Part shown: piece after piece, positions 1,419 through 63,751 of the stretch
Position numbering within the stretch: position 1 is the stretch's first letter
How the letters are laid out: the number at the start of each line of letters is the position of its first letter
Assembly (NCBI RefSeq): GCF_014224355.1
Contig: NZ_VNWP01000002.1
Coordinates: 124,001-188,000 of the forward strand
Direction of reading: 5' to 3'
Length of the DNA: 64,000 nucleotides
DNA from: Synechococcus sp. BSA11S
GTDB taxonomy: Bacteria; Cyanobacteriota; Cyanobacteriia; PCC-6307; Cyanobiaceae
The notes under the pieces: model-generated
The model's input: the letters and a program-made list of their open reading frames with translations, nothing else
Database searches by the model: none
Told to the model about the DNA's origin: nothing
Position numbers and translations under genes: made by a program

Positions 1419-2972
1419 TCAGCTCTGGCCGCGGCGCAGCAGGGCGGAGAGGGGGTTGCGCGGGCCGCCGCCTTCCTGCCTGGAGGGCTTGGCTGCAGGT
1501 TCAGCTGTCTTGGCTGGGGCACCCCCCGGGCTGAGGCTGGGATCGGCCTCCTGGCCGAGGGAGAACTGCTCCACATCGGCGGCCGAGGGGGTGGGCTGCT
1601 TGACCCCACGTACATCGCGGTACATGGCGTCGTAGTCGAGTGCCGAGCGGGTCCAGCTGTGGTCGACGGCCATGGCGCGCAGCTGCAGCTCCCGCCAGCT
1701 TTGGCTGTGGCGGTAGGCCTCCCAGGAGCGCACGATCGCGGTGTAGAAGTCGACCGGCTCATAGCGATCGAAGCAGAAGCCGGTGCCGCTGTGGCTTGCT
1801 GGCACATGGGGCTGGACGGTGTCGACCAGGCCCCCCACCTTGCGCACGATCGGGATGCAGCCGTAGCGCATCGCCAGCATCTGGCTGATGCCGCAGGGCT
1901 CGAAGCGGCTGGGCATCAGGAAGGCATCGGCGCCGGCATAGATCAACCGCGCCAGGGCATCGTCGTAGGTGAGGAACACCGAGAAGCGGCCGGGATGGCG
2001 GGCGGCCATCTGCCAGAGGCCCGATTCATAGTTGCGGTCGCCTGTTCCCAGCACCACGATCTGGCTGTCGGAGTAGGCGAGCACCCGATCGGCCACCTGC
2101 AGCAGCAGATCCACCCCTTTCTGGTCGACCAGACGGCTGACCATCCCCATCAGGTAGGTGTCGGCATTGACCCCCAGGCCCATGCGCTCCTGCAGCACCT
2201 GTTTGTTGGTGGCCCTCGGCGCCATGTCGCTGGCGCTGTAGCGGGCAGGCAGCAGGCTGTCGCTGGCAGGATTCCAGGCTTCGGTGTCGATGCCGTTGAG
2301 GATGCCGCGCAGCTTGCCGCTGATGTAATTCAGCAGGCCTTCGAGGCGTTCGCCGTATTCGGGCGTGCGGATTTCCTGGGCATAGGTGGGCGAGACGGCA
2401 TTGACCCGATCGGCATAGAGCAGGGCGGCGGCCATGGTGTGGTCCCCCTGCATGTACCAGGGAATCCAGGTCATGCGCTCGAGTTTCCAGCGCCAGGGGC
2501 CCTGATATTCGAGGTTGTGGATGGTGAAAACGGTGCTGATCTCGGGGTCCTGGTGCATCCAGACCGGGATCATGCCCGTGTGCCAGTCATGGCAGTGAAA
2601 GACCTCCGGCTTCCAGTGGTTCCAGGCGAATTCGGCGGCGGCGTTGGCAAAGAAGGTGAAGCGCCAGTCCTCATCTTCTCCGCCGTAGATGCGCTCCGGA
2701 TCGAACACTGGATGACCGACCAGATACAGCGGCAGCCCATGGACTGGATGCTGTGTTTCGTAGACGGCGAAGTCGTTGCCCATCGCCCAGCCACGAAAGA
2801 CGGGCTCCGAGGGGATCTTCAGGCGGCTCCAGAGCTTCCCGTAACCCGGCATGATCGTGCGCACGTCGTGGCCCAGGGCTGCCACCGCCGGCGGCAGGGA
2901 TCCCACCACATCACCCATGCCCCCCACCTTGATCATCGGGGCGCACTCGGCGGCGGCGAACAACACGCGCAT
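1419..2972 (-). CDS. glgA: Glycogen synthase (ADP-glucose)
   Basis: GlgA transfers glucose from ADP-glucose to growing glycogen chains, a GT5 glycosyltransferase. The 517-residue product starts [28 protein letters not shown] is the ADP-glucose-binding KxGGL-type loop. The C-terminal Rossmann half contains the [16 protein letters not shown] segment that binds the sugar nucleotide. Length is slightly above the usual 470-490 because of a Pro/Ala/Ser-rich tail of about 50 residues. ATG at 2972 is unambiguous because the homologous N-terminus begins there. It belongs with glgB at 38330 in glycogen storage, though the two are unlinked. A 13-bp inverted repeat separates it from the upstream L,D-transpeptidase. 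Confidence 0.95.
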
Positions 2973-3007
2973 GGGGAGAACCCAGGGAAGGGCCGAACTC
3001 TACGTTT

Positions 3008-3035
3008 CCTGCCCTGAGCGAACGCTCAGGGCAGG
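3008..3035. repeat. Perfect 13-bp inverted repeat overlapping the end of the L,D-transpeptidase gene
   Basis: CCTGCCCTGAGCG followed by AA and the exact reverse complement. The stop codon and last two codons of the minus-strand transpeptidase gene lie inside one arm. It could act as a factor-independent-like transcript end or a 3' stabilising hairpin before glgA; there is no T-tract on either side, so it is not a classical terminator. Confidence 0.7.
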
Positions 3036-3685
3036 ACCGTGACCACGGTTCCCATGCGCACCAGCTCGAAGAGGTCACGCACGTTTTCCTCGTACATGCG
3101 CACGCAGCCGTGGGAGACCGCCTGGCCGACCGTCTCCCGATGGGGGGTGCCGTGGAAGCCGGCGGTGACACAGCCCTTCACCTCAAGATGCTGCTGACCG
3201 TTGAACCCCCGCTTGCCGGCGCAATCGCGGTGGAAGCCGATCCAGCGGCTTCCCAGGGGGTTGTTCGGCCCTGGAGGGTAGAGCTTGCCGCTCACCGGGT
3301 GCTTCCAGACCGGATCGGGCGCCATTTCGATCACCTGGAAACGGCCAAGAGGAGTTTCCCAGCCGGGCATGCCCACACCCACCGGGAAGCGACGCAGCTC
3401 GCGGCCATTTTCGATCACCACCACCTGCCGCTTGCTGCGGTGAATCACCAGGCTGCGTTCAGGGCGTGGTGAGCTGATCGCCACTTCGGCGTCTCGCCGC
3501 GCCTGCGGCTTCGGCTGAGGTTGCGGTTGCGGTTGCAGAGCAGGGGTGTGGGGGAGCGCCACAGGGGGATGCCATGTCTCTTGAGCCGAGGCGGGAGGCT
3601 GGGCCTGAGCCATGGCTCCGGCTGGCGTCAGCAGGCCGCCACCGAGCAGCAGGGTCACCAGGGGGAACGTGAAGCGGGGAGGCAC
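3026..3685 (-). CDS. Secreted L,D-transpeptidase (YkuD domain)
   Basis: A periplasmic peptidoglycan cross-linking enzyme family that joins meso-diaminopimelate residues through a catalytic cysteine. The 219-residue product has a signal peptide (residues 1-27, ending near GAMAQA), a Pro/Gln-rich linker to about residue 65, and a YkuD domain ending with the signature VSHGCVRMYEENVRDLF near the C-terminus, where the Cys of HGCVR is the nucleophile. The upstream His of the family is present in GFHGT. The start codon is GTG at 3685; no better ATG precedes it. No linked partner gene is apparent. What it cross-links in this organism cannot be told from sequence. Confidence 0.9.
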   Translation of the reverse strand: MPPRFTFPLVTLLLGGGLLTPAGAMAQAQPPASAQETWHPPVALPHTPALQPQPQPQPKPQARRDAEVAISSPRPERSLVIHRSKRQVVVIENGRELRRFPVGVGMPGWETPLGRFQVIEMAPDPVWKHPVSGKLYPPGPNNPLGSRWIGFHRDCAGKRGFNGQQHLEVKGCVTAGFHGTPHRETVGQAVSHGCVRMYEENVRDLFELVRMGTVVTVLP

Positions 3686-4016
3686 AGCCAGGCGTCGGTT
3701 CAGAAACTTTTGAATCCAGTTTAAGGAGCTGGCTCCTGAGCAGGCTGTCAGCAGATTGCAATCAACTCCTGCGCTGCCTCGAAGCCTGAAGCCACCAACG
3801 ATCTACTGGGTTCTGGATGGTTCGCAGGAGGAGATCTGTGTGGTTTCACGTTTCTGAGATGGCTGCAGGGACTCGATCTGCAGCCGACTTTGTTGTACTT
3901 GAGTTGGCTGAATGCTTGCTGCCGCAGATCTGGCTGACAACCCGCGACGCCAGCTTGCGAAATTCAGCTGCTTGGCTCCAGGGGCCACTGTGTCAGTGCC
4001 TTCCGCTGCTCAACCC
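3686..4016. other. Non-coding gap between divergent genes
   Basis: About 330 bases separating the divergently read L,D-transpeptidase and the hypothetical gene at 4017. It must hold both promoters. I see no RNA gene, no clear sigma-70 pair and no strong hairpin. The downstream frame stays open back to an ATG at 3912, so the right-hand gene could be 35 codons longer, but that extension looks compositionally unlike a protein start. Confidence 0.5.
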
Positions 4017-4406
4017 ATGACTGCCGCTCCCTATCTGATCGCCCTGGCCCTGCTGGAGCAGGGGGGGCAGCGGGCGATGCCGCTCCAGGGACAGTCGTTG
4101 GTGGAGGCTCTCCCGGCTGAAGGGGATCCTGGCGACGTCGGCCGCCAGCAGGCCCTCGAGCTCCTGGTGCGGGTGTGGCAGCGCAGTGAGGAGGGTGCGC
4201 TGCGGAGGGCGGCCGGCGAGCACAGCCTGCTGCTGCTGGAGTTGCCGATCGAGGCCTTACAGGAGACCTTGCCCGCGATCAAGGCCCGGTGGATCGCCAC
4301 CGGCGACACCATGGCTCTGTTGCAACAGCTGAGGGAGCTGGCGGGTGGGCTCTGGACCCTGGGACTGGAGCGCCGTGAGCCGCTCTGCTTCCGGCGGCTT
4401 CAGTAG
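4017..4406 (+). CDS. Small conserved-looking hypothetical protein
   Basis: A 129-residue soluble protein rich in Leu, Glu and Ala, predicted almost entirely helical. No motif I recognise. The chosen ATG at 4017 gives the start MTAAPYLIALALLEQG; an ATG at 3912 in the same frame is possible but adds an atypical segment. It converges on menB, with 35 bases between the two stop codons. GC-rich third positions match the surrounding genes, which is the main support for it being real. Confidence 0.55.
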   Translation: MTAAPYLIALALLEQGGQRAMPLQGQSLVEALPAEGDPGDVGRQQALELLVRVWQRSEEGALRRAAGEHSLLLLELPIEALQETLPAIKARWIATGDTMALLQQLRELAGGLWTLGLERREPLCFRRLQ

Positions 4407-4441
4407 TTGCGCCGGTCCAGTGGCTTGATGGCCATTTGGGT

Positions 4442-5338
4442 TCAGGGCAGCCAGGGGGCATCGCTGAAGTCGGGATCGCGCTTCTCCAGGAAGGCATTGC
4501 GGCCCTCCTGACCCTCGGCGGTTCGATAGAAGAGATGGGTGGCCTGGCCCGCCAGTTCCTGGATGCCGGCCAGGCCATCGGTTTCAGCGTTGAAGGAGGC
4601 CTTGAGGCAACGGATCGCCGTGGGGCTGTGCTGCAGCACCTCCCGGGCCCAGCGCACCCCCTCAGCCTCCAGCTCCTGCAGCGGCACCACCGCGTTCACC
4701 AGTCCCATGGCCAGGGCCTCCTCGGCGTTGTACCGGCGGCAGAGGAACCAGATTTCACGGGCCTTGCGCTGGCCCACCAGGCGCGCCAGATAGCCGGCGC
4801 CGAAGCCGCCGTCGAAGCTGCCCACCCGCGGCCCCGTCTGGCCGAACGCCGCGTTTTCCGCCGCCAGGCTGAGGTCGCAGAGCAGATGCAGCACCTGGCC
4901 GCCGCCGATGGCGTAGCCCGCCACCAGGGCGATCACCACCTTGGGCAGGGAGCGGATCTGGCGTTGCAGATCGAGCACGTTCAGTCGCGGCAGGCCGCTG
5001 TCATCGAGGTAGCCGCCATCGCCGCGCACGCTCTGGTCCCCGCCGGCGCAGAAGGCGTAGCCCCCGTCGGCCGCCGGGCCCACGCCGGTGAACAGCACCA
5101 CCCCCACCCGTGGGTCGTCGCGCACCCGGCTGAAGGCGTCGTGGAGCTCCACCACCGTGCGAGGGCGGAAGGCGTTGCGTTTGGCCGGACGGTTGATGGC
5201 GATGCGGGCGATTCCCTCGTCGCAGAGGTCAAAGCGGATGTCGTCGTAGCTGGCGGCGGGCTGCCAGCGCACCGGGCTCTCCCCCGGCAGCACCGGGCCG
5301 GGGCTTGGGACGTCAGCCGGCGTGGGATCGGCGCTCAT
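4442..5338 (-). CDS. menB: 1,4-dihydroxy-2-naphthoyl-CoA synthase
   Basis: MenB closes the second ring of the naphthoquinone by a Dieckmann-type cyclisation of succinylbenzoyl-CoA, part of phylloquinone (vitamin K1) synthesis for photosystem I. The 298-residue crotonase-fold protein carries the CoA/oxyanion segments [11 protein letters not shown] (about residues 97-107) and [16 protein letters not shown], and the MenB-specific [14 protein letters not shown] and [18 protein letters not shown]. It is about 20 residues longer than usual at the N-terminus. Its ATG overlaps the stop of menD by four bases (5335-5338), so the two steps are translationally coupled. Confidence 0.95.
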
Positions 5339-7209
5339 CGCGGCGGGGGCTGGGGAGGAGCCATTCTGAGCTGCGGGCGTGGGCAGTCCTGGCGCAAGCG
5401 CTGGCGCAGCTGGGCATCGGCGAGGCGGTCGGTTTTCACCTCCAGCAGAGCCACCGGCTGCCTCAGGGCCCAGCCCAGGGCCTCGCCCAACTCCGCCAGG
5501 GCCGCCACCCGACGCCAGGGCACCCCATGGGCGGCCGCCAGGGCGGTGTGCTCCAGCGGCTGCCCCATGGCGAACAGGCGCTCGAAATCCAGGGGCGGTG
5601 AGGCCCGGATCGGCAGTTGCTCGAAGATGCCGCCGCCTCCGTTCTCGATCAGCACCACGGTGAGCTGGCCCCGCAGCTGGTGGTGCCAGAGCCAGCCGTT
5701 GCTGTCGTGGAGCAGGGCCAGGTCGCCGCAGAGCAGCACCAGCCCACCGAGACTCTCCGCCAGGCCGGCCGCCAGTGAGAGCGTGCCATCGATTCCCGAC
5801 GCCCCCCGGAAGCCGTACAGGGGCCTGGCGGGGCCGCTGGGATCGGAGAAGCTCTCCCAGTCACGGACGGGGCTGCTGCTGGCCAGCATCACCGCCCGGC
5901 CCGGCGGTAACAGCCGGCCGAGGGCCCGGACCAGGCTGGGTTCATCGGGCCTGGCGCCGCTGGTCTGCTGCTGGAGCTGCCTGTTCAGCCAGCTCTGACT
6001 GCTTGTTTCGGAGGTCCGCCAGAGGGCCAGGAAGTCCTGGTTGGCCCTGGTGCCGGTGCTCCCCTGCCAGAGCGCGGCGGGCAGGGCAGCGCTCCAGGCC
6101 TCCAGCCCACCGCTGTGGCGCGCCGTCGCTGTGCCCAGGGGATCAAGGTCACGCGGATCCGCTTCGCTGATCAGCACCTGATGGCCGCCGCTGGCTGAGA
6201 GCCAGGCCTGCAGCCGCCGGCTGGCCGGCAGCGGCCCCAGCCTCAGCATCTGGCCGGGGGCCAGGGCGGGATCGGGGTCCTCGAGGATCAGGTCGTAGCC
6301 GGCCACCAGCTGCAGCCCCGCCTGACCCCGCAGGCCGGAGAGCCCATCCGCCAGCAGTGGCCAGCCACTGCGCTGCTGCCAGCGCCCTACAGCGGCGGCG
6401 AAGCCGGGCCAGTGCTCGGGCCTGCCCCGCCAGGGTCCCGCCACGATCACACCGGGGCGATCGGGATCCAGGCCGAGCAGGTGATCGCTGCCCATGGTTT
6501 CGCCGGCGCTGGCCGGCTCAGCGGGGCTGACTCCGGGATCCTGGCCCGGTCCACCACTGATCTCTGCAGCGGTCCGATCGATTCCTCCAAGCTCATCGAC
6601 CAGCCGTTGCAGGGCCTCCGCTCCCGCATGGAGCGGCTCCTCGAAGGGCAGATTCAGGTGCACGGGCCCCATCGGAGCGGCCAGGGCCATCCGATGGGCC
6701 CGCCTGGCCAGGGCCTGGAGGGCAGCGCGGTCCATGGCGTCCAGGCCCCGGTTGTCGCCCTGGCCGAACCAGCGGCAGCAGGGGGCGAGGAATGCCTCCT
6801 GGTTCACGGTCTGATTGGCCCCGCGATTCTTCAGCCGCAGCGGACGGTCGGCGCTGAGCAACAGCAGCGGAATGGCGCCGCTGTCGGCTTCCACCACAGC
6901 GGGCAGAAGGTTGGCCACGGCGGTCCCGGAGGTGGTGATCACCGCCGACGGTTTGCCCTCGGCCCTGGCCAGGCCCACGGCGAAGAACCCCGCCGATCGC
7001 TCATCGATGGCCGTGTGCAGCTTCAGCCCCCGGTGCAGCAGCAGCCCGGCCGCCGCCGCCAGGGGCCCCGAGCGGCTGCCCGGGCAGAGCACGACTCGCT
7101 CAACCCCAAGCGCCAGCAGCTCCAGCAGCAGGTGCGCCGCTGCCCTGAGATTGGCCTCGGCCCGATCACCCTGCCGTCTGGGCTGCTCCTGGCTCACCGG
7201 GTCCGCCAC
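5335..7209 (-). CDS. menD: MenD, SEPHCHC synthase (2-succinyl-5-enolpyruvyl-6-hydroxy-3-cyclohexene-1-carboxylate synthase)
   Basis: MenD is the thiamine-diphosphate enzyme that joins 2-oxoglutarate to isochorismate in phylloquinone synthesis. The 624-residue product shows the N-terminal Pyr-domain signature [10 protein letters not shown] and [17 protein letters not shown], a central region, and the ThDP/Mg-binding block [15 protein letters not shown] near residue 500. The start codon is GTG at 7209 (an in-frame GTG 12 bases downstream is an alternative). It heads a menD-menB unit and is divergent from lepB with only 20 bases between the start codons, so at least one promoter must lie inside the opposite coding region. 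Confidence 0.94.
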
Positions 7210-56988: not shown

Positions 56989-56999
56989 TCAGCTAGTTC

Positions 57000-57026
57000 G
57001 CAATTGAAGGACCTGTTGAGAATTGC
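57000..57026 (+). promoter_or_regulatory. Inverted repeat upstream of fur
   Basis: GCAATT and AATTGC arms separated by 15 bases containing TTGAGA, a half-site like those of cyanobacterial Fur boxes. It lies just before a TAGGAT -10 candidate (57031-57036), a position suited to autoregulation of fur. Confidence 0.4.
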
Positions 57027-57060: not shown

Positions 57061-57573
57061 GTGCCATCCCGATCGCCGGCAGGGTCGCAGTCCCGCTCCG
57101 CCTCAGCCGCCACCATTCCTGCCAGCACAAGTCCGGCCACGGAGCTGCGCTCCAGCCTGCATGGGAGAGGCCAGCGGCTCACGCCCCAGCGGCAGAAGGT
57201 GCTCACGCTGTTCGAGCGGATCGGTGAAGGCAGTCACCTCAGCGCCGAGGAAGTCCATCAGCGCCTCCTGCGTGCGGACGAACGGGTGTCTCTGGCCACC
57301 GTGTACCGCACCCTGCGGTTGCTCAGTTCGATGGAGCTGCTGCGGGAACTGGAATTGCCCGAAGGGGGGCGTCGCTTCGAGCTGGCCAGTGATGCCCACC
57401 GCGATCACCATCACCTGGTCTGTGTGGGTTGCGGGCGCACCGAGGAGTTCGAGAGTGCCGTGGTGCTGGCGGAAGGCCGCCAGGCCGCCAGCAGTCTTGG
57501 CTTCCGCCTGATCGAGTGCGTGCTCAACGTGAGGGCTTTGTGTCCTCGCTGCGCCGCCGGCGAACCCGCCTGA
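57061..57573 (+). CDS. fur: Fur-family metalloregulator
   Basis: A 170-residue winged-helix repressor. After a 30-residue Ser/Ala-rich extension, the DNA-binding domain contains RLTPQRQKVLTLFERIGEG, HLSAEEVHQRLL and the recognition helix VSLATVYRTLRLL. The C-terminal dimerisation domain has the metal residues HRDHHHLVCVGCG and CPRC (Cys121, Cys124, Cys161, Cys164 as structural zinc). Iron sensing (Fur) is favoured over Zur or PerR because a Crp-family regulator and the FutAB iron importer lie just downstream, but the sequence alone does not decide. Start is GTG 57061; no other start exists before the domain. Confidence 0.85.
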   Translation: MPSRSPAGSQSRSASAATIPASTSPATELRSSLHGRGQRLTPQRQKVLTLFERIGEGSHLSAEEVHQRLLRADERVSLATVYRTLRLLSSMELLRELELPEGGRRFELASDAHRDHHHLVCVGCGRTEEFESAVVLAEGRQAASSLGFRLIECVLNVRALCPRCAAGEPA

Positions 57574-57832
57574 GCGGGGGGTGGTTGGCCCCGTGGGCAG
57601 TGAGAGCGGCGAGAAGGGTGGCGCGATCGCCGTGGAGCCTGAGCATCGCAGTGGTGCGGCAACGACCTGAGGCTGGGCCCAGCCGGGGCGGGCCGGCGCC
57701 CCAGGGGGCACGACTGCAGGCGTGAAAAGGCACATCCCGGCGACGCTTCCACGACGGTCTGCGCCCGGGCCGGGGCTTTCAACAATGGGAGTTATTGAGA
57801 ACAGATTGCAAAAAGGGGCCTCCACTGATTAG

Positions 57833-57851
57833 ATTGCGAGTCATTCGCAAT
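57833..57851 (+). promoter_or_regulatory. Perfect 7-5-7 palindrome, candidate Fur box for the Crp-family gene
   Basis: ATTGCGA-GTCAT-TCGCAAT, 12 bases before the GTG start at 57864. It resembles the 19-bp cyanobacterial Fur box (ATTGAGA-N5-TCTCAAT) in size and outer bases. A partial second copy (ATTGAGA...ATTGCAA) lies about 40 bases further upstream. Confidence 0.6.
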
Positions 57852-57863
57852 AGCGTCTGTTCC

Positions 57864-58460
57864 GTGAGCTTCCGTTTCCTGCCCGAGCAGCCCCTCTCCT
57901 GCGTGCGGATGCCGGCCGGCCAGACCGCGCTGCTTGACCCCACCCGCCGCCCCGGTGGCAGTTCCATCGAGGTGCTGGAAGGCATCGCCCGCGTCTACTG
58001 CCCCTGCGAGGAGACCGAGAGCATGACTCTCGCTTTCCTCCAGCCTGGTGATCAGCTCCGCACCGATCGGCTCTGCAGTGAAGGGGTCTGCGTGGAGGCC
58101 CTCACTCCGCTCAGCTTCCGCTCGGAGGTGGAGCCGGCCGGTGAGACCGGCTTCGATGCGGTGAACGAATGGACCTTGCAGCTGCTGCGGATCCGCCATC
58201 TCGGCTCAGCGGAGCAGCGGCTTCATGCCCTGTTCGGGCTGCTGGTGCGTCGTCTCGGGCGACGCTGCGGACCCTGGTGTGATCTGCCCTTCCGCCTCAC
58301 CCACGAACGCATCGGTGAGTTGATCGGCACCACCCGCGTCACCACCACCCGATTGATCTCCAGGATCCGCCAGGCCCAGCTGCTGGAAGCCCCTGCGGGC
58401 GAACCCGGCCTGCGCCTGGCGCCTTCCCTGGTGGAATCCGCTCCCCTGGCCGCCGCCTGA
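57864..58460 (+). CDS. Crp/Fnr family transcriptional regulator, iron-linked by context
   Basis: A 198-residue regulator. The N-terminal cyclic-nucleotide-like beta barrel is short and degenerate (RMPAGQTALLD to FLQPGDQLRTD), with no canonical cAMP-binding RxS motif and no Fe-S cysteine set. A dimer helix (DAVNEWTLQLLRIRHLGSAE) leads to a winged helix with FRLTHERIGELIGTTRVTTTR as helix-turn-helix. Start is GTG 57864, giving SFRFLPEQPLSC; the frame is open to 57795 but that would run through the palindrome. Placement between fur and futAB recalls IdiB, the iron-responsive Crp-type activator of idiA in Synechococcus. Confidence 0.82.
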   Translation: MSFRFLPEQPLSCVRMPAGQTALLDPTRRPGGSSIEVLEGIARVYCPCEETESMTLAFLQPGDQLRTDRLCSEGVCVEALTPLSFRSEVEPAGETGFDAVNEWTLQLLRIRHLGSAEQRLHALFGLLVRRLGRRCGPWCDLPFRLTHERIGELIGTTRVTTTRLISRIRQAQLLEAPAGEPGLRLAPSLVESAPLAAA

Positions 58461-58465
58461 TCCCC

Positions 58466-59467
58466 CTGCCCACGCCGGCCCCGCCACCACCCCCGCTCCT
58501 GCCCTGCCCGCTCACGGCCGGCTGGGAGCTGGTCGCCCACGCGGTCCTTCCGTCTCAGGGAGTCGATGGACGACGCCTGGGGGGGTTCTCCGCTGCGGCC
58601 ACCGATCCCCACGATGGGCGCCTCTGGTTGCTCAGCGACCGTGCGGAGCCCGAACTGCTGCCCATCTGGGACCTGGCCAGCCTCGGCCGGCGCCCTCTGC
58701 GTATCGGTGATCGTCTGCCCCTGCGCCCCAGCGCAGGGGATCGCTTCCCGGTGCCCCTGGACGGCGAAGGCCTGGTGCTTGAGGGTTCCGACGCCTGGAT
58801 CGTGAGCGAGGAGCGTCGCAGCGCTGATCGGCCCGCTCAGCTGCTCCGTTTCGATCGTGGCAGTGGCCGGCTGCGTCAGGCTCTGCCTCTGCCTCCGGCG
58901 TGGAGGGCAGCCCCTGACCAGGGCCTCGGCGCCAACCAGGGCCCGGAATCGCTCACACGCCTCCCGGGCGCTCCCCTGGTCCTGCTGCTGGCGGCGGAGC
59001 GCCCCTTGCTTCAGGACCCCCCCGATCAGCTGCGTCTGCTCAAGCACGGACCCGATGGCTTCCGGCCGGCGGGGGCACTGCGCCTGTCTCTGCCAGGTCC
59101 TCACTGGGGGCTCACCGAGCTGCTCGCCCTTCCGAGCGGTGGTCTGCTCGGACTGGTGCGAGGATTTGAGCCCCCCGCCCGCTGGTGGGCCCAGCTGCTG
59201 CAGCTGCCTTCCCCGGAAGCGGCCGGTTCGGTGCAGCGTCCACTCATGCGCTGGGATCTGCTGGCCACGGGACTTCCCCCCGACAACTGGGAGGGACTGG
59301 TTATGGGGCCTCCCCTGCCGGATGGCCGTCCCACAGTGCTGCTGGTGAGCGACGACAATTTCAGCCCCCTGCAGGCCAGCCGCCTGGCCCGCCTTGCCCC
59401 ACGCCGGCAACCCGGCTGCAGCGATGGCTCAGTCGCGGCTCTCGAGGGTGGGGATCAGGGCCAGTGA
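58466..59467 (+). CDS. Esterase-like/phytase-like family protein with non-canonical start
   Basis: A roughly 330-residue beta-propeller-like protein of the phytase-like (esterase-like) family. The family N-terminus is readable upstream of any ATG, GTG or TTG: GWELVAHAVLPSQGVDGRRL followed by GGFSAAATDPHDGRLWLLSD. The first standard start, TTG 58628, would cut into this conserved block. CTG at 58466, or CTG 58457 overlapping the Crp stop, are the only candidates. Later segments GPESLTRLPGAPLVLLLAAE and NWEGLVMGPPLPDGRPTVLL and LVSDDNFSPLQASRL are typical. Its last 39 bases overlap the convergent futB. Confidence 0.68.
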   Translation: MPTPAPPPPPLLPCPLTAGWELVAHAVLPSQGVDGRRLGGFSAAATDPHDGRLWLLSDRAEPELLPIWDLASLGRRPLRIGDRLPLRPSAGDRFPVPLDGEGLVLEGSDAWIVSEERRSADRPAQLLRFDRGSGRLRQALPLPPAWRAAPDQGLGANQGPESLTRLPGAPLVLLLAAERPLLQDPPDQLRLLKHGPDGFRPAGALRLSLPGPHWGLTELLALPSGGLLGLVRGFEPPARWWAQLLQLPSPEAAGSVQRPLMRWDLLATGLPPDNWEGLVMGPPLPDGRPTVLLVSDDNFSPLQASRLARLAPRRQPGCSDGSVAALEGGDQGQ

Positions 59468-60979
59468 GGCCACCATCCCCAGGGTCATGATGATCAGGGC
59501 CGGGGCCATCGCCGCACCAACCCGCTCATCACTGGCGTACTGGAAGACACGCACGGCCAGGGTGTCGAAATCGAACGGACGCAGGGAGAGTGTCAGCGGC
59601 AGTTCCTTCACCACATCCACGAACACCATCAACCCGCCCACCAGCACCGGACCGCGCAGCAGGGGCAGGTGAACCCGCCGCAGCACCTGGGTCCAGCTGC
59701 AACCCAGACTGGTGGCCGACTCATCGATGCTGGGGGGTATCCGCTCCAGGCCGGCGTCGAGGCCCTGCTTGGCCACGGCCATGAAGCGCACCCCATAGCC
59801 CCAGAGCAGCAGCAGCAGTGGGCTGAGCAACCAGGGACCCCCCAGCAGCATCAGACCCAGAGCCAGGACGCTGCCCGGAACGGCGTAGCCCATCCCCGCC
59901 AGGAAACTGAGCTGCCGCACCAGCAGACGCGGGCTCCAGCGGCGGATGATCGCCAGCAGCAGGGCCGCCACGCCGGTGAGCAGTGTGGCCACCAGCGCCA
60001 GGGCGAGGCTCCGGCCCGCCAGGACCAGCTGCTCACCCAGCGGTTCCTCCAGCAGGTTGCGCCAACCTTCCGTCACCCAGACCAGTGGAATGACCAGCAC
60101 CAGAAGGGGTGGAAGGGCTGACACCAGCTGGGCCAGCAGCGCCCGCCAGCCCTGCAACACGTAGGCCTGCGCCTCGCCACTCGAGGAACCCAGATTCCAG
60201 CGCCGACTGCGCCGACGCAGGGAACGCTCGGCGGCCACAAGGATCACGACGATCCCCAGGGCGATCAGTGAGAGCAACGCCGCCCCGCGGGGATCACCTT
60301 CCACTTGCCAGCGATCGAGGATGCCCGCCGAGAGGCTGGGAACCCCCAGCAGCCGCACAGCCCCCAGTTCATTCACCACCTCCATCGCGCTCAGGGCCAC
60401 CCCGGCTCCGATCGCCGGCAGGGCGATGGGCAGCGCGACCCGCCGGAACGCCTGCCAGGGCCCCACGCCCAGGCTGCGGCTGGCTTCCAGCAACTGGCCA
60501 CCGGTGATCGAGAAACTTTCGGTGCTCAGCAGAAAGACATAGGTGTAATTGCCCAGAGCGAGGAGCAGCACAGCCCAGCCCAGACCGTGGATGCGCAGGC
60601 CATGGCTGCTGCCCCAGTCGATCAGGCTGGCCGCCAGCAGATAAGCCGGAAAGGCCAGCGGCAGCAACTGGGCCATGCGCAACCAGCGCCGACCGGGAAA
60701 GCGGCAGGCCGCCGTGAGCCAGCCGATGGCGGTGCCCATCACGGCACCGCAGACCCCCTCTCCAAGCACCAGCACCAGGGTGCCGCGAATCTGATCCGCA
60801 CCATCGAAGCCCAGACCCAGCCCCCCCAGCAGCGAGGGCTGCATGACGGCATCGCCGAACAACGCAGCCAGCGGCAGCAGAGCCAGCACAACAATCACCA
60901 CCACCATGGCGGTGAGCGCCGGACGGCTGGAGGGGTTGACCTGCGCGAGCGGGCGTGGGGCGAGCAGGGTCACTTCCAC
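59429..60979 (-). CDS. futB: Ferric iron ABC transporter permease (FutB-like)
   Basis: A 516-residue fused double permease of the ThiP/AfuB type with about twelve transmembrane helices. Each half carries an EAA-type loop: EASRSLGVGPWQAFRRVALPIALPAI and DESATSLGCSWTQVLRRVHLPLLRGP (each shown in family position). It imports Fe3+ across the plasma membrane using an ATPase (FutC) not encoded here. Its start overlaps the futA stop region by ten bases. Iron is inferred from the futA neighbour. Confidence 0.9.
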   Translation of the reverse strand: MEVTLLAPRPLAQVNPSSRPALTAMVVVIVVLALLPLAALFGDAVMQPSLLGGLGLGFDGADQIRGTLVLVLGEGVCGAVMGTAIGWLTAACRFPGRRWLRMAQLLPLAFPAYLLAASLIDWGSSHGLRIHGLGWAVLLLALGNYTYVFLLSTESFSITGGQLLEASRSLGVGPWQAFRRVALPIALPAIGAGVALSAMEVVNELGAVRLLGVPSLSAGILDRWQVEGDPRGAALLSLIALGIVVILVAAERSLRRRSRRWNLGSSSGEAQAYVLQGWRALLAQLVSALPPLLVLVIPLVWVTEGWRNLLEEPLGEQLVLAGRSLALALVATLLTGVAALLLAIIRRWSPRLLVRQLSFLAGMGYAVPGSVLALGLMLLGGPWLLSPLLLLLWGYGVRFMAVAKQGLDAGLERIPPSIDESATSLGCSWTQVLRRVHLPLLRGPVLVGGLMVFVDVVKELPLTLSLRPFDFDTLAVRVFQYASDERVGAAMAPALIIMTLGMVASLALIPTLESRD

Positions 60980-62013
60980 CCAGTTTCCGCCATCAGCGCG
61001 CTGGCCTCTCGGTTGCCGCTGGCCAGTTGATCCGCACTGACCGGCGAAGGCTGAAAGTTGCCGAAGCCATTGAGGATCGGGTTTTCCCCGAAGCCCTGCA
61101 GCGGGTATTCATTGTTGGCGGCCGCATAGCCCTTGCCTGAGCTCGGGGAGGCCAGAAATTCGATCAACCGGGTGGCCGCCTCGGGGTTGCTGGCATGGCG
61201 GGTGACACCGGCGGCGGTGATGTTCACGTGGGTGGGGGATGGGAACACCACCTTGATCTTCTGCGCCAGGGCTTTGTCCTCCGGTTTGGCCTCGCTGGAG
61301 AGCATGCGCGCCAGGTAGTACTGGTTGGCCACGGTCACCCCGCACTCACCACGGCCGACCGCCCGCAGCATCGGGGTGTCGCTGGTGAAGAAGGGTGGTT
61401 TCACATTGGCCACCAGGCCCTCCAGCCAGCTTCTGGTGGCGGCGGCTCCCTGTTGCTGGAGGATGTCGGCCACCAGTGACTGGTTGTAGACGCTGGCCCG
61501 GTTGCGCAGGCAGAGCTTGCCCTTCAGTTCCGGCTTGGCCAGATCGGCGTAGCTGTTCAGGCTGGAGGGGTCCACCAGGGCAGGGTTCACCATGATCGGC
61601 CTGGCGCGGCGGGTGAGGGCGTACCAGCTGCCGGCTGGATCCCGCAGGTTGGCAGGCACGTCGCGGTTGAGGGCCTCGGAGCTGATCGGCTGGAACAGCT
61701 CGTCCTGGCGGGCACGCTGAATCCTGGCGGCGTCCACCAGCACCAGCACATCAGCGGGGCTGTTCTCCCCTTCGCTCTTGAGGCGCACGATCAATTCATC
61801 GTCCTTGCCCTCGAGCAGGTTCACCTTGATGCCGGTCTCGGCTGTGAACTGCTTGTAAAGCTCCTTGTCGGTGTTGTAGTGGCGGCCGGAGTAGATGTTC
61901 ACTTCCCCGTCTGACTTCTGCGGCGCTGCGCAACCAGTGAGGACGGCCAGGCCGAGCGCTCCGGCGAGGGCGAGCGCCCTGGAGCGAATCAGGGGGGGAC
62001 GATGCTGAGTCAC
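60970..62013 (-). CDS. futA: Ferric iron-binding lipoprotein (FutA/IdiA-like)
   Basis: Periplasmic Fe3+-binding protein of the FutA/IdiA family; some members also protect photosystem II under iron stress. The 347-residue precursor has a lipobox LTGC with Cys28. The binding residues of the family are recognisable: GRHYNTDKELYKQFTAETGI with Tyr near the N-terminus, WYALTRRARPIMVNP, and the Tyr pair in VANQYYLARML. The start is GTG 62013. Divergent from the P-loop fusion gene with 58 bases between. A clear Fur box is not seen in that gap. Confidence 0.92.
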   Translation of the reverse strand: MTQHRPPLIRSRALALAGALGLAVLTGCAAPQKSDGEVNIYSGRHYNTDKELYKQFTAETGIKVNLLEGKDDELIVRLKSEGENSPADVLVLVDAARIQRARQDELFQPISSEALNRDVPANLRDPAGSWYALTRRARPIMVNPALVDPSSLNSYADLAKPELKGKLCLRNRASVYNQSLVADILQQQGAAATRSWLEGLVANVKPPFFTSDTPMLRAVGRGECGVTVANQYYLARMLSSEAKPEDKALAQKIKVVFPSPTHVNITAAGVTRHASNPEAATRLIEFLASPSSGKGYAAANNEYPLQGFGENPILNGFGNFQPSPVSADQLASGNREASALMAETGWK

Positions 62014-62071: not shown

Positions 62072-63751
62072 TTGCTTCCAACTGATGTGACATCGGCTAC
62101 CCCTGCTCATCCCACCGGCCCGGAACCGCCGCTGGATCTGGCCAGTCTGATCAGGGCCCTGAGCCGCGCCGAGGCCTATCCAGACGACGCCTGGGGAGAG
62201 CTTCCAGTGGAGCAACGCCGGGTGGAGGTGGTTCAGACCCACATCAGCGTGGTCTTCCTCAGCGGCCGGCGCGCCTACAAGCTCAAGAAGCCCCTGAGCT
62301 TCTGGGGTCTGCTCGATTACGGCAGTGCCGAGCAGCGTCTGCACTGGTGTCGCGAAGAAGTCAGGCTCAACAGCCGCCTGGCACCTGATCTCTACCTCGG
62401 GGTGGCGCCGGTGCTGCGCTTCACAGACGGCGGGGCCAGGGTCGGTGCCCTCGACACGGAGCTGGAGGGGGGGGAGCACGTGGTGGTGATGCGCCGCTTC
62501 GAGGCCGGAGCCACCCTCGCCAGCCGGCTGGCGGCCGGCCGGGTCAGCGAAGCGGATCTGCAGCGTCTGGGCGAGCGCATCGCCGGCTTCCACGATCAGA
62601 ACCGGCTGGAGCCCGCCCTGGCCAAGGGCGCCGACCGGCGCTTTGCGGCGGTGCTGCGCAGCAATGTCTGCGCCACCCGCCGCTCGGTTCCTGAGCTGTT
62701 TCCTGCGGGTGTTCATGAGCTGCTCGTCGGCGGCCTGGCCCTGGCCCTTCGCCGATCCCGCCACGTCCTGCGCCAGCGGCTGGCGGCGGGAGCGGTCGTG
62801 GATGGCCACGGCGACCTGCGGCTTGAGCACGTGCTGCTCGAGCCGGCGCTGGCCGTGGTCGATGGAGTGGAGTTCAACGCCGACCTGCGCCAGGTGGATC
62901 GGGCCTCCGACCTCGCCTTTCTGGTGATGGACCTGCAGGCCTCGGGTCACGCCGCTTGCATCCCAGCCTTGCTGAAGGGCTACGGCCAGATGATCGAGCC
63001 AGCCGTGCTTGGGCTCTTCTGTGCCTACCGTGCCCACGTGCGGGCCAAGGTGGAAGCAGCCACCAGCGGCGAAGCGGAGATCCCCCGGCCCCAGCGCCAG
63101 GGCGCCGAGGTGATGGCGCGGCGCTACCTCAGCCTGGCGCTGGCCTATGCCTTCAGGGGGCTGAGCCCCCCGGCCCTGATCCTGCTCCATGGTCTCTCCG
63201 GCAGTGGCAAGAGCCATCTGGCCAAACGACTGACCCCCTGGCTGCTGGCCGGCCTCCACCGCAGCGACCTGATCCGCAAACGGCTGCACGGTCTGCAGCC
63301 CCTGCAGCGGCCATCACTCCAGGAGACACGGCAGCTCTACGGCCCCATCGCCGATCAACGCACCGAGGCTGCCCTGCTCGACGCCGCCGCGGCCAGCCTG
63401 ACCAGGGGGGACTGGGTGCTGCTGGATGCCACACACCTGAAGTCCGCCAGCCGGGAGAGAGCCATGCAACTGGCAGGGCGCCTCGGGGCGATCAGCCTCG
63501 TGCTGGACGTTCAGGCCGATCAGGCCTTGCTAAAGCAGCGCTTGGAGCGGCGCGGGCTGCTGGATGACGATCCCAGCGATGCGAATCTGCCCGTCCTGCA
63601 GGAGCAGATGCGTTCTGCCGAACCACTCACCCCAGGTGAGCAGGAATGCAGCGTGGTAGTGGATTCTCGGACGGACCTGGATGACTCGGCTGTGCTGATG
63701 GCGCTGTGGGAGCACTGGCGGGCACGGCTGAAAACCCTGCGCCGTGCGTGA
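62072..63751 (+). CDS. Two-domain protein: aminoglycoside phosphotransferase-like plus P-loop kinase
   Basis: A 559-residue fusion. Residues about 20-345 resemble the kinase-like COG2187 domain: VVFLSGRRAYKLKKPLSFWG with a Lys pair, VVMRRFEAG, DGHGDLRLEHVL with the catalytic-loop Asp, and VDGVEFNADLRQVDRASDLA with the metal Asp. Residues about 365-555 are a P-loop kinase with LLHGLSGSGKSHLAKRL (Walker A near 375), HRSDLIRKRLHG and WVLLDATHLKS, like the COG0645/zeta-toxin-type kinases. Substrate unknown. TTG 62072 or GTG 62087 is the start; there is no ATG nearby. Divergent from futA. Confidence 0.83.
   Translation: MLPTDVTSATPAHPTGPEPPLDLASLIRALSRAEAYPDDAWGELPVEQRRVEVVQTHISVVFLSGRRAYKLKKPLSFWGLLDYGSAEQRLHWCREEVRLNSRLAPDLYLGVAPVLRFTDGGARVGALDTELEGGEHVVVMRRFEAGATLASRLAAGRVSEADLQRLGERIAGFHDQNRLEPALAKGADRRFAAVLRSNVCATRRSVPELFPAGVHELLVGGLALALRRSRHVLRQRLAAGAVVDGHGDLRLEHVLLEPALAVVDGVEFNADLRQVDRASDLAFLVMDLQASGHAACIPALLKGYGQMIEPAVLGLFCAYRAHVRAKVEAATSGEAEIPRPQRQGAEVMARRYLSLALAYAFRGLSPPALILLHGLSGSGKSHLAKRLTPWLLAGLHRSDLIRKRLHGLQPLQRPSLQETRQLYGPIADQRTEAALLDAAAASLTRGDWVLLDATHLKSASRERAMQLAGRLGAISLVLDVQADQALLKQRLERRGLLDDDPSDANLPVLQEQMRSAEPLTPGEQECSVVVDSRTDLDDSAVLMALWEHWRARLKTLRRA

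Follow-up and report, generated by a model that had tools for sequence, protein, structure and literature searches.

A conserved pair of putative Fur boxes at a Crp-family gene, and a possible route to iron uptake control in picocyanobacteria

What does the palindrome in front of a Crp-family gene control, at a locus that also carries fur and the iron transporter genes futAB? The question arises from a 64-kb stretch of the genome of Synechococcus sp. BSA11S (the whole stretch analysed, hereafter the window), in which ATTGCGAGTCATTCGCAAT is followed, after 12 bases, by the GTG start codon of the Crp-family gene at 57864. A preliminary description had presented this site as a perfect 19-bp palindrome and as a candidate Fur box with a link to iron. 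The site and its position stand, but its perfection does not: the outer 7+7 bases are perfectly symmetrical, and in the inner GTCAT the T-A pair about the central C fits whereas the G-T pair is mismatched. The neighbourhood is as described, with fur upstream (57061-57573) and futB and futA downstream on the minus strand, a phytase-like ORF lying between. FutA is securely identified, by homology, as an iron-binding protein. The features of the locus are as follows.

57061..57573, plus strand: fur, Fur-family gene (Pfam FUR, E 1.1e-32; a Fur structure is best in the PDB search)
57795..57811, plus strand: box A, TTGAGAACAGATTGCAA, putative Fur operator, starting 39 bp before the box B 17-mer
57806..57811, plus strand: likely -35 hexamer TTGCAA, the right half of box A; assigned from its sequence and from a position conserved in relatives
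57830..57835, plus strand: likely -10 hexamer TAGATT, 18-nt spacer from TTGCAA; assigned from its sequence and from a position kept in relatives
57833..57851, plus strand: box B, palindrome ATTGCGAGTCATTCGCAAT, putative Fur operator over the probable -10 and transcription start
57864..58460, plus strand: crp, Crp-family regulator, 198 aa (Pfam HTH_Crp_2, PF13545, E 3.7e-8; NtcA-like predicted fold)
59429..60979, minus strand: futB, iron ABC transporter permease (Pfam BPD_transp_1, E 3.3e-21; substrate assigned by the neighbouring futA)
60970..62013, minus strand: futA (idiA), iron-binding protein (PDB 8c4y, E 3e-97; 2pt1, E 4.3e-86)
62087..62100, minus strand: CRP-type palindrome GTAGCCGATGTCAC before futA, putative Crp target

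Two boxes over the probable crp promoter

The palindrome has a companion. The pattern TTGMGA-N5-TYKCAA occurs exactly at two places in the 64 kb, box A and the 17-mer core of box B (57834-57850), and in none of 100 shuffles. The perfect 19-mer is found once in the window and, as that same single site, once in the 2.88-Mb genome; up to two mismatches, 7 further genome places appear, against 0 for the reversed control. Both boxes are odd-centred inverted repeats of the 7-1-7 type, TGCGAGT-C-ATTCGCA for B and the less symmetrical TGAGAAC-A-GATTGCA for A, and this geometry is that of Fur sites. By hand count, B matches only 9 and A only 8 of the 14 positions of what we take to be the GATAAT-type Fur consensus, which is that of E. 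coli.

TTGCAA and TAGATT stand 18 nt apart, which would place A over the -35 element and B over the -10 element and the start point, transcription being predicted to begin at about 57842, within box B. This pair agrees with the promoter consensus at 8/12 positions by hand count, and similar hexamers recur at like spacing in relatives. A consensus promoter scanner found no -35/-10 above threshold at crp and did not list the TTGCAA/TAGATT pair, so that we infer the promoter from the conserved spacing. The earlier statement that the palindrome overlaps the leader of the gene was therefore an understatement: the site lies on the probable promoter, and box A had gone unnoticed.

The 19-mer is unchanged in 9/9 genomes of the genus, and the upstream region reads TTATTGAGAAYNGATTGCAAAA ... 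TTTAGATTGCGAGTCATTCGCAATA in all nine, the window having AACAGATTGC and GATTAGATT; the box B form recurs across the family. A protein search gave Synechococcus sp. RedBA-s, Cruz-7E5 and CS-1329 among the near relatives of the source genome. Where Fur-family genes were searched for, in nine genomes, each had them, and this genome has four, the fur of the window being our candidate source of the protein that binds A and B. Upstream of this fur (window 56997-57022), we also noted TTCGCAATT and GTTGAGAA half-sites, kept in 6/6 genus loci viewed, which perhaps serve Fur autoregulation.

Conservation and targets of the paired module

To compare upstream regions, we used 208 loci with crp and at least 120 nt upstream, picked for crp and not for box A and many of them sharing genera, which gave 129 distinct regions. 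Box A has at least 17/21 consensus positions in 129/129 of these and 21/21 in 54, and is the more conserved of the two. Box B reaches at least 10/12 in 112/129 regions, with an A-to-B offset of 38-40 bp in 111 of these (39 in 83); it falls below 8/12 in ten, nine of them decayed and mostly Prochlorococcus-like, and one (L132) too short to judge. In the Prochlorococcus loci L153, L155, L159, L160, L163 and L175, box A is kept and a recognisable box B is lost, so one box may suffice there.

A strict pattern of 55-57 bp, TTGNGAA-N4-TTGCAA-N21..23-TTGNNA-N5-TNNCAA, was then used to locate the exact A+B module in 151 family genomes. It matches 85 places in 73 of them, and its reversed control matches in 0/151; its absence from 78/151 is explained in part by variants that so strict a pattern misses. 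Among the 85 places, 69 could be classified, a contig end truncates 11 within 95 bases and 5 were unfetched. Directly upstream of crp stand 62 of the 69 (57 placed from known crp coordinates and five by tblastn, one of these a contig-end fragment). Six are at iron loci, three of them before uptake genes (futAB in G086, the second futA with futB in G032, feoA-feoB in G040) and three, in G000, G006 and G144, before a small ORF that adjoins ferritin. The last precedes a 50-aa ORF without assigned kind, also in G032.

Exact single-box sites number five in the source genome, two at crp, two in a feoB/ferritin cluster and one (C12:8918) away from both iron loci. At crp and in the cluster alike, the sites are pairs 39 bp apart. 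Ferritin and FeoB of this cluster were identified by Pfam and a second ferritin by likeness; the A+B there precedes a 132-aa ORF without assigned function. Scanning the genome for sites at iron genes, as had been suggested, thus yielded the ferritin/feoB cluster, but no A+B directly before feoB, isiB, futC or idiA in this genome. Matches with one mismatch (16/10) showed no excess over the reversed control (12/12). Looser, matrix-style scanning would therefore mislead; it was dropped as noise, and only exact or paired sites were used. Lone A matches within or ahead of unrelated genes (for example L233, L234, L235, L239, L242), and a single A-like site before feoA in L241, were discounted as targets.

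Several small genes recur around these modules. The iron clusters L211 (G000:C6:48500-55500, 2101-6175) and L212 (G006:C23), with ferritin, a small ORF, feoB and a second ferritin-like gene, are very alike in two species of the genus and were perhaps recently transferred; they include a Crp-like ORF of 213 aa in G006 and just 152 aa in G000. A family of about 90-130 aa with a SLCREVD.IR-like motif (L211:2689-3087, L231:2085-2381, L288:4156-4437, L386:3044-3334) recurs after crp, or after an A or A+B module beside ferritin, and a Pfam/NCBIfam scan of three members gave no match. Directly after an A+B-like module, two genera (L355:2562-2714, L240:3064) have an ORF of 46-50 aa (M.RLFG.RDDLL), possibly an unrecognised small iron-stress protein. 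Finally, in L232 near 3035, on the minus strand, a perfect box A precedes a 51-aa cysteine-rich ORF adjoining futB.

The module is also found where crp is not. Matches to crp at E <= 1e-35 are present in 248/300 family genomes and 53/59 genera, and 8 of the 52 genomes without such a match were re-searched. G013 and G093 have pieces of crp at contig ends; in G086, G051, G110, G040, G032 and G077, crp hits have at most 40% identity and the orthologue is apparently missing. In the five of these six that were followed further (G086, G051, G110, G032 and G040), A+B was found, before futAB in G086, G051 and G110, before the second futA with futB in G032, and before feoA-feoB in G040; A+B was identified by eye in G051 and G110, and FeoA of G040 was assigned by Pfam. 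The longest reading of the ORF would start inside or before the boxes in G086, G051, G110 and G032, and we therefore assume a start codon further down. In three of the crp-less genomes, G086, G051 and G032, a fur of the window type (67-72% identity) adjoins futAB and a futC-like ATPase. Such ATPases were named futC by position, and match ABC families with no specific cut-off passed among the matches listed. Thus, crp-less genomes keep the boxes, and do so at genes one would expect to be under Fur. The search for sites near iron genes had a stronger outcome in these relatives, before futAB and feoAB, than in the source genome, and comparative genomics backs the proposal of a putative Fur box linked to iron.

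The Crp-type protein and the palindrome before futA

The product of crp has a Crp-type winged helix (PF13545, 33.6 bits for a cut-off of 27), and a fold search agrees. Its AlphaFold model (pLDDT 84) consists of a beta-rich half and the winged helix, with NtcA structures as nearest solved folds (TM about 0.7, about 20% identity). No Pfam match to the cNMP_binding domain was obtained in Crp at E 0.001, the N-terminal half of the model being beta-rich. Outside the family, a search of 195 genomes of the class gave only distant hits, the best by E-value having E 2.9e-13 and 34% identity over 139 residues, and most others covering the helix-turn-helix alone.

Four cysteines, C46, C48, C71 and C76, are invariant in 113/113 distinct aligned orthologues and lie in or beside loops of the model; C135 and C139 are each present in 110/113. 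A 41-45% identical paralogue (L014-L021), found in eight other genomes of the genus and not in this one, lacks all four in 8/8 and has one cysteine elsewhere in the region. That the four (CPC, CSExxC) hold an Fe-S cluster or form a thiol switch, which would make Crp an iron or redox sensor, is an idea that we put forward with considerable doubt.

In many freshwater-type loci, crp is linked to fut genes, in either arrangement. In the marine-Synechococcus-like genus g5, crp is followed by a protein of about 98 aa and flavodoxin, with an iron uptake porin, ferritin and futA nearby (L286, L289); in the Prochlorococcus-like L287, L288 and L290, it is followed by a similar protein of about 90 aa, ferritin and a futC-like ATPase. 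No fut genes were found in the available flanks of other crp loci, including, for futA, the named Prochlorococcus loci.

Before futA, the palindrome GTAGCCGATGTCAC stands 44 nt from TACCTT at 62042-62037. It is the one match to GTRRC-N4-GYYAC in the 64-kb window, where 0.67 would be expected by chance. The perfect motif is present in 22/38 distinct futA upstream regions of crp-containing genomes (0.002 per sequence in shuffles) and in 0/2 crp-less regions of the same 40-region set; it was also found neither in the region of G110 nor at either futA copy of G032, both crp-less. The motif was derived from sequences that were later counted, and a single genus contributes six of the 22; 22/38 therefore rules out composition and does not prove the exact motif. 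The palindrome is followed 44 nt later, at a class I-like distance, by a TAnnnT hexamer in the window, in L080 and in L105; for L110 and similar loci, the nearest one is apparently about 10 nt further on. The motif is weak or absent in marine- and Prochlorococcus-like loci, and its counts there (at least 9/10 positions) are mostly near those of shuffles, L286 being an exception with 15 matches vs 4.0 in shuffles, most of them inside ORFs. We therefore claim the futA site for freshwater-type loci only.

A proposed two-step iron response, its rivals and its known relatives

The CRP-type palindrome that futA often has in crp-containing genomes suggests that Fur represses crp and that Crp activates futAB. 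With plentiful iron, Fe-Fur, probably from the adjoining fur, would bind both boxes, which lie 39 bp apart (A at the -35, B at the -10 and the start), and so shut crp off. Upon a drop in iron, Fur would leave, crp would be transcribed, and the Crp-type protein would activate futAB from the palindrome, which stands some 44 nt ahead of the presumed futA -10. Where a lineage has no crp, A+B directly before futAB or feoAB would give Fur control without the middle step. As a whole, this combination of a two-box Fur-controlled crp promoter, Crp at futA and direct Fur control where crp is missing is the best explanation we have, and we regard it as fairly probable. That Fur binds A and B, we hold with good confidence; that the entire cascade runs from Fur through crp to futAB, we favour only slightly.

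Other proteins could in principle bind the two boxes. They might be autoregulatory sites of the Crp-type protein itself and not Fur boxes, in line with the 62 of 69 classified places at the crp promoter and with a box A that is better conserved, but less symmetrical, than would be required of a plain Fur box. Yet five genomes that lack a crp orthologue have A+B ahead of futAB or feoAB, which argues that the boxes are independent of Crp and points to Fur; a dependence of A and B on Crp is unlikely given these genomes. Moreover, futA in crp-containing genomes often has a different, even-centred CRP-type palindrome, and A and B are odd-centred (N5), as is unusual for the Crp family. Autoregulation is therefore improbable in our view. 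We give equally little credence to another Fur-family member, Zur or PerR, with a circuit that answers zinc or peroxide: Zur and PerR boxes resemble Fur boxes and this genome has four Fur-family genes, but, one small ORF aside, every classified target is crp or a locus for iron uptake or storage, and the fur found close to futAB in G086, G051 and G032, all crp-less, is of the window type. Besides, G086 also has a divergent Fur-family gene beside cobW, which looks like a zur. As for a chance inverted repeat, matches with three mismatches do arise by chance in the window, but the identity in 9/9 genus members and the recurrence of A+B in 73/151 genomes, with 0 in the control, already refute it and leave it practically no probability.

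The second step is more exposed. The GT..AC palindrome at futA may belong to NtcA or another Crp-family protein, crp and futA being mere neighbours. Several of the sites also read GTA-N8-TAC, which is the NtcA site form; other sites are GTGAC-N4-GTCAC and not GTA...TAC. The crp-less genomes have other Crp-family hits (in those of g44, another Crp protein weakly grouped with IdiB-like ones, 81/84), and the motif is weak in marine-like loci; the crp-less genomes, however, keep their other Crp-family genes and yet lack the futA site, and the linkage of crp and fut is frequent and occurs in more than one arrangement. We thus consider an NtcA-type reader at futA unlikely, but to be taken seriously, and prefer Crp as the protein that would read this site.

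Like known Fur operators, the boxes are odd-centred 7-1-7 repeats before iron genes and near fur, and they would lie over promoter elements. They differ from the usual Fur-box consensus, which consists of GATAAT repeats, by their TTGMGA...TYKCAA core, by their usual pairing at 38-40 bp and by an asymmetrical upstream box that hardly varies throughout the family.

IdiB of Synechococcus elongatus is a Crp-family activator of idiA, and the locus had been likened to a picocyanobacterial version of its circuit. As an analogy this holds: a Crp-family gene lies beside idiA/futA in the window and in many relatives, not all, and would be expected to act under low iron. Orthology, in contrast, we reject. 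The Crp-type protein forms a separate clade (100/99 at the split, with the IdiB-like proteins, the CysR-like ones and two further Crp proteins of the source genome on the other side, several branches being long), and its four cysteines are absent from IdiB-like proteins. In two 2.7-Mb genomes, termed S. elongatus-like partly on idiA and cluster content, the orthologue profile scores the IdiB-like gene beside idiA at E 5.5e-11 and 7e-12, below the CysR-like one (1e-17 and 6e-19). Crp may thus work like IdiB but is not IdiB. The CysR-like proteins (G326, G308; CysR being a name that we assume for the Crp-like protein of sulfate clusters) are the best-scoring relatives outside the family, with 34-35% identity over about 139 residues, and their gene sits among sulfate transporter genes (sulfate-binding protein above cut-off), not iron genes. 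With NtcA, CRP and PtrA, the protein shares its predicted fold, the winged helix and GTR...YAC half-sites at the supposed target; it differs by the lack of a cyclic-nucleotide domain match and by the four-cysteine region, and stays far below the cut-offs of the NCBIfam models for NtcA (TIGR03697, 25.2 vs 244.95 bits) and PtrA (NF053664, 38.9 vs 300 bits).

In the accessible portion of PMC11979508, IdiB is listed among characterised local regulators. The available part of PMC11221513 presents IutR as an iron activator of Synechocystis that is rare in Prochlorococcus; IutR, too, adds an activator to cyanobacterial iron control, but is of the AraC family. According to the sections of PMC2633013 at hand, CRP-like sites occur in 13 cyanobacterial genomes lacking CRP, as possible targets of other Crp-family proteins, and four marine Synechococcus show no such signal, in agreement with the weakness of the futA motif in marine-like loci. 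The literature searched, with most subscription journals outside it, named in its accessible portions neither a picocyanobacterial Fur operator nor a Crp regulator of fut genes; the A/B site and the Crp regulator are likewise undescribed in the available parts of PMC7170224, PMC11979508, PMC11221513, PMC9723758, PMC2441476, PMC7522525, PMC2633013, PMC8786288, PMC3475125 and PMC3598940. While an IdiB-like cascade is of a known kind, the picocyanobacterial A+B/Crp version is, as read from sequence comparison, a widely conserved, new variant.

Iron limits picocyanobacteria in parts of the ocean. The strict 55-57-bp pattern offers a ready marker for likely direct Fur targets. The Crp-type protein could fill the place of IutR in picocyanobacteria, and its circuit with futA may explain part of the CRP-like sites reported in the consulted sections of PMC2633013. 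Should the cysteines indeed hold a cluster, Prochlorococcus and Synechococcus would read iron twice before futAB opens, first through Fur at the promoter of crp and again through the cluster that Crp carries, and A+B, present across the family, would act as the switch through which the iron regulon of these very abundant phototrophs is entered. Lastly, the direct control of futAB in some lineages and its Crp-mediated control in others would constitute a natural experiment.
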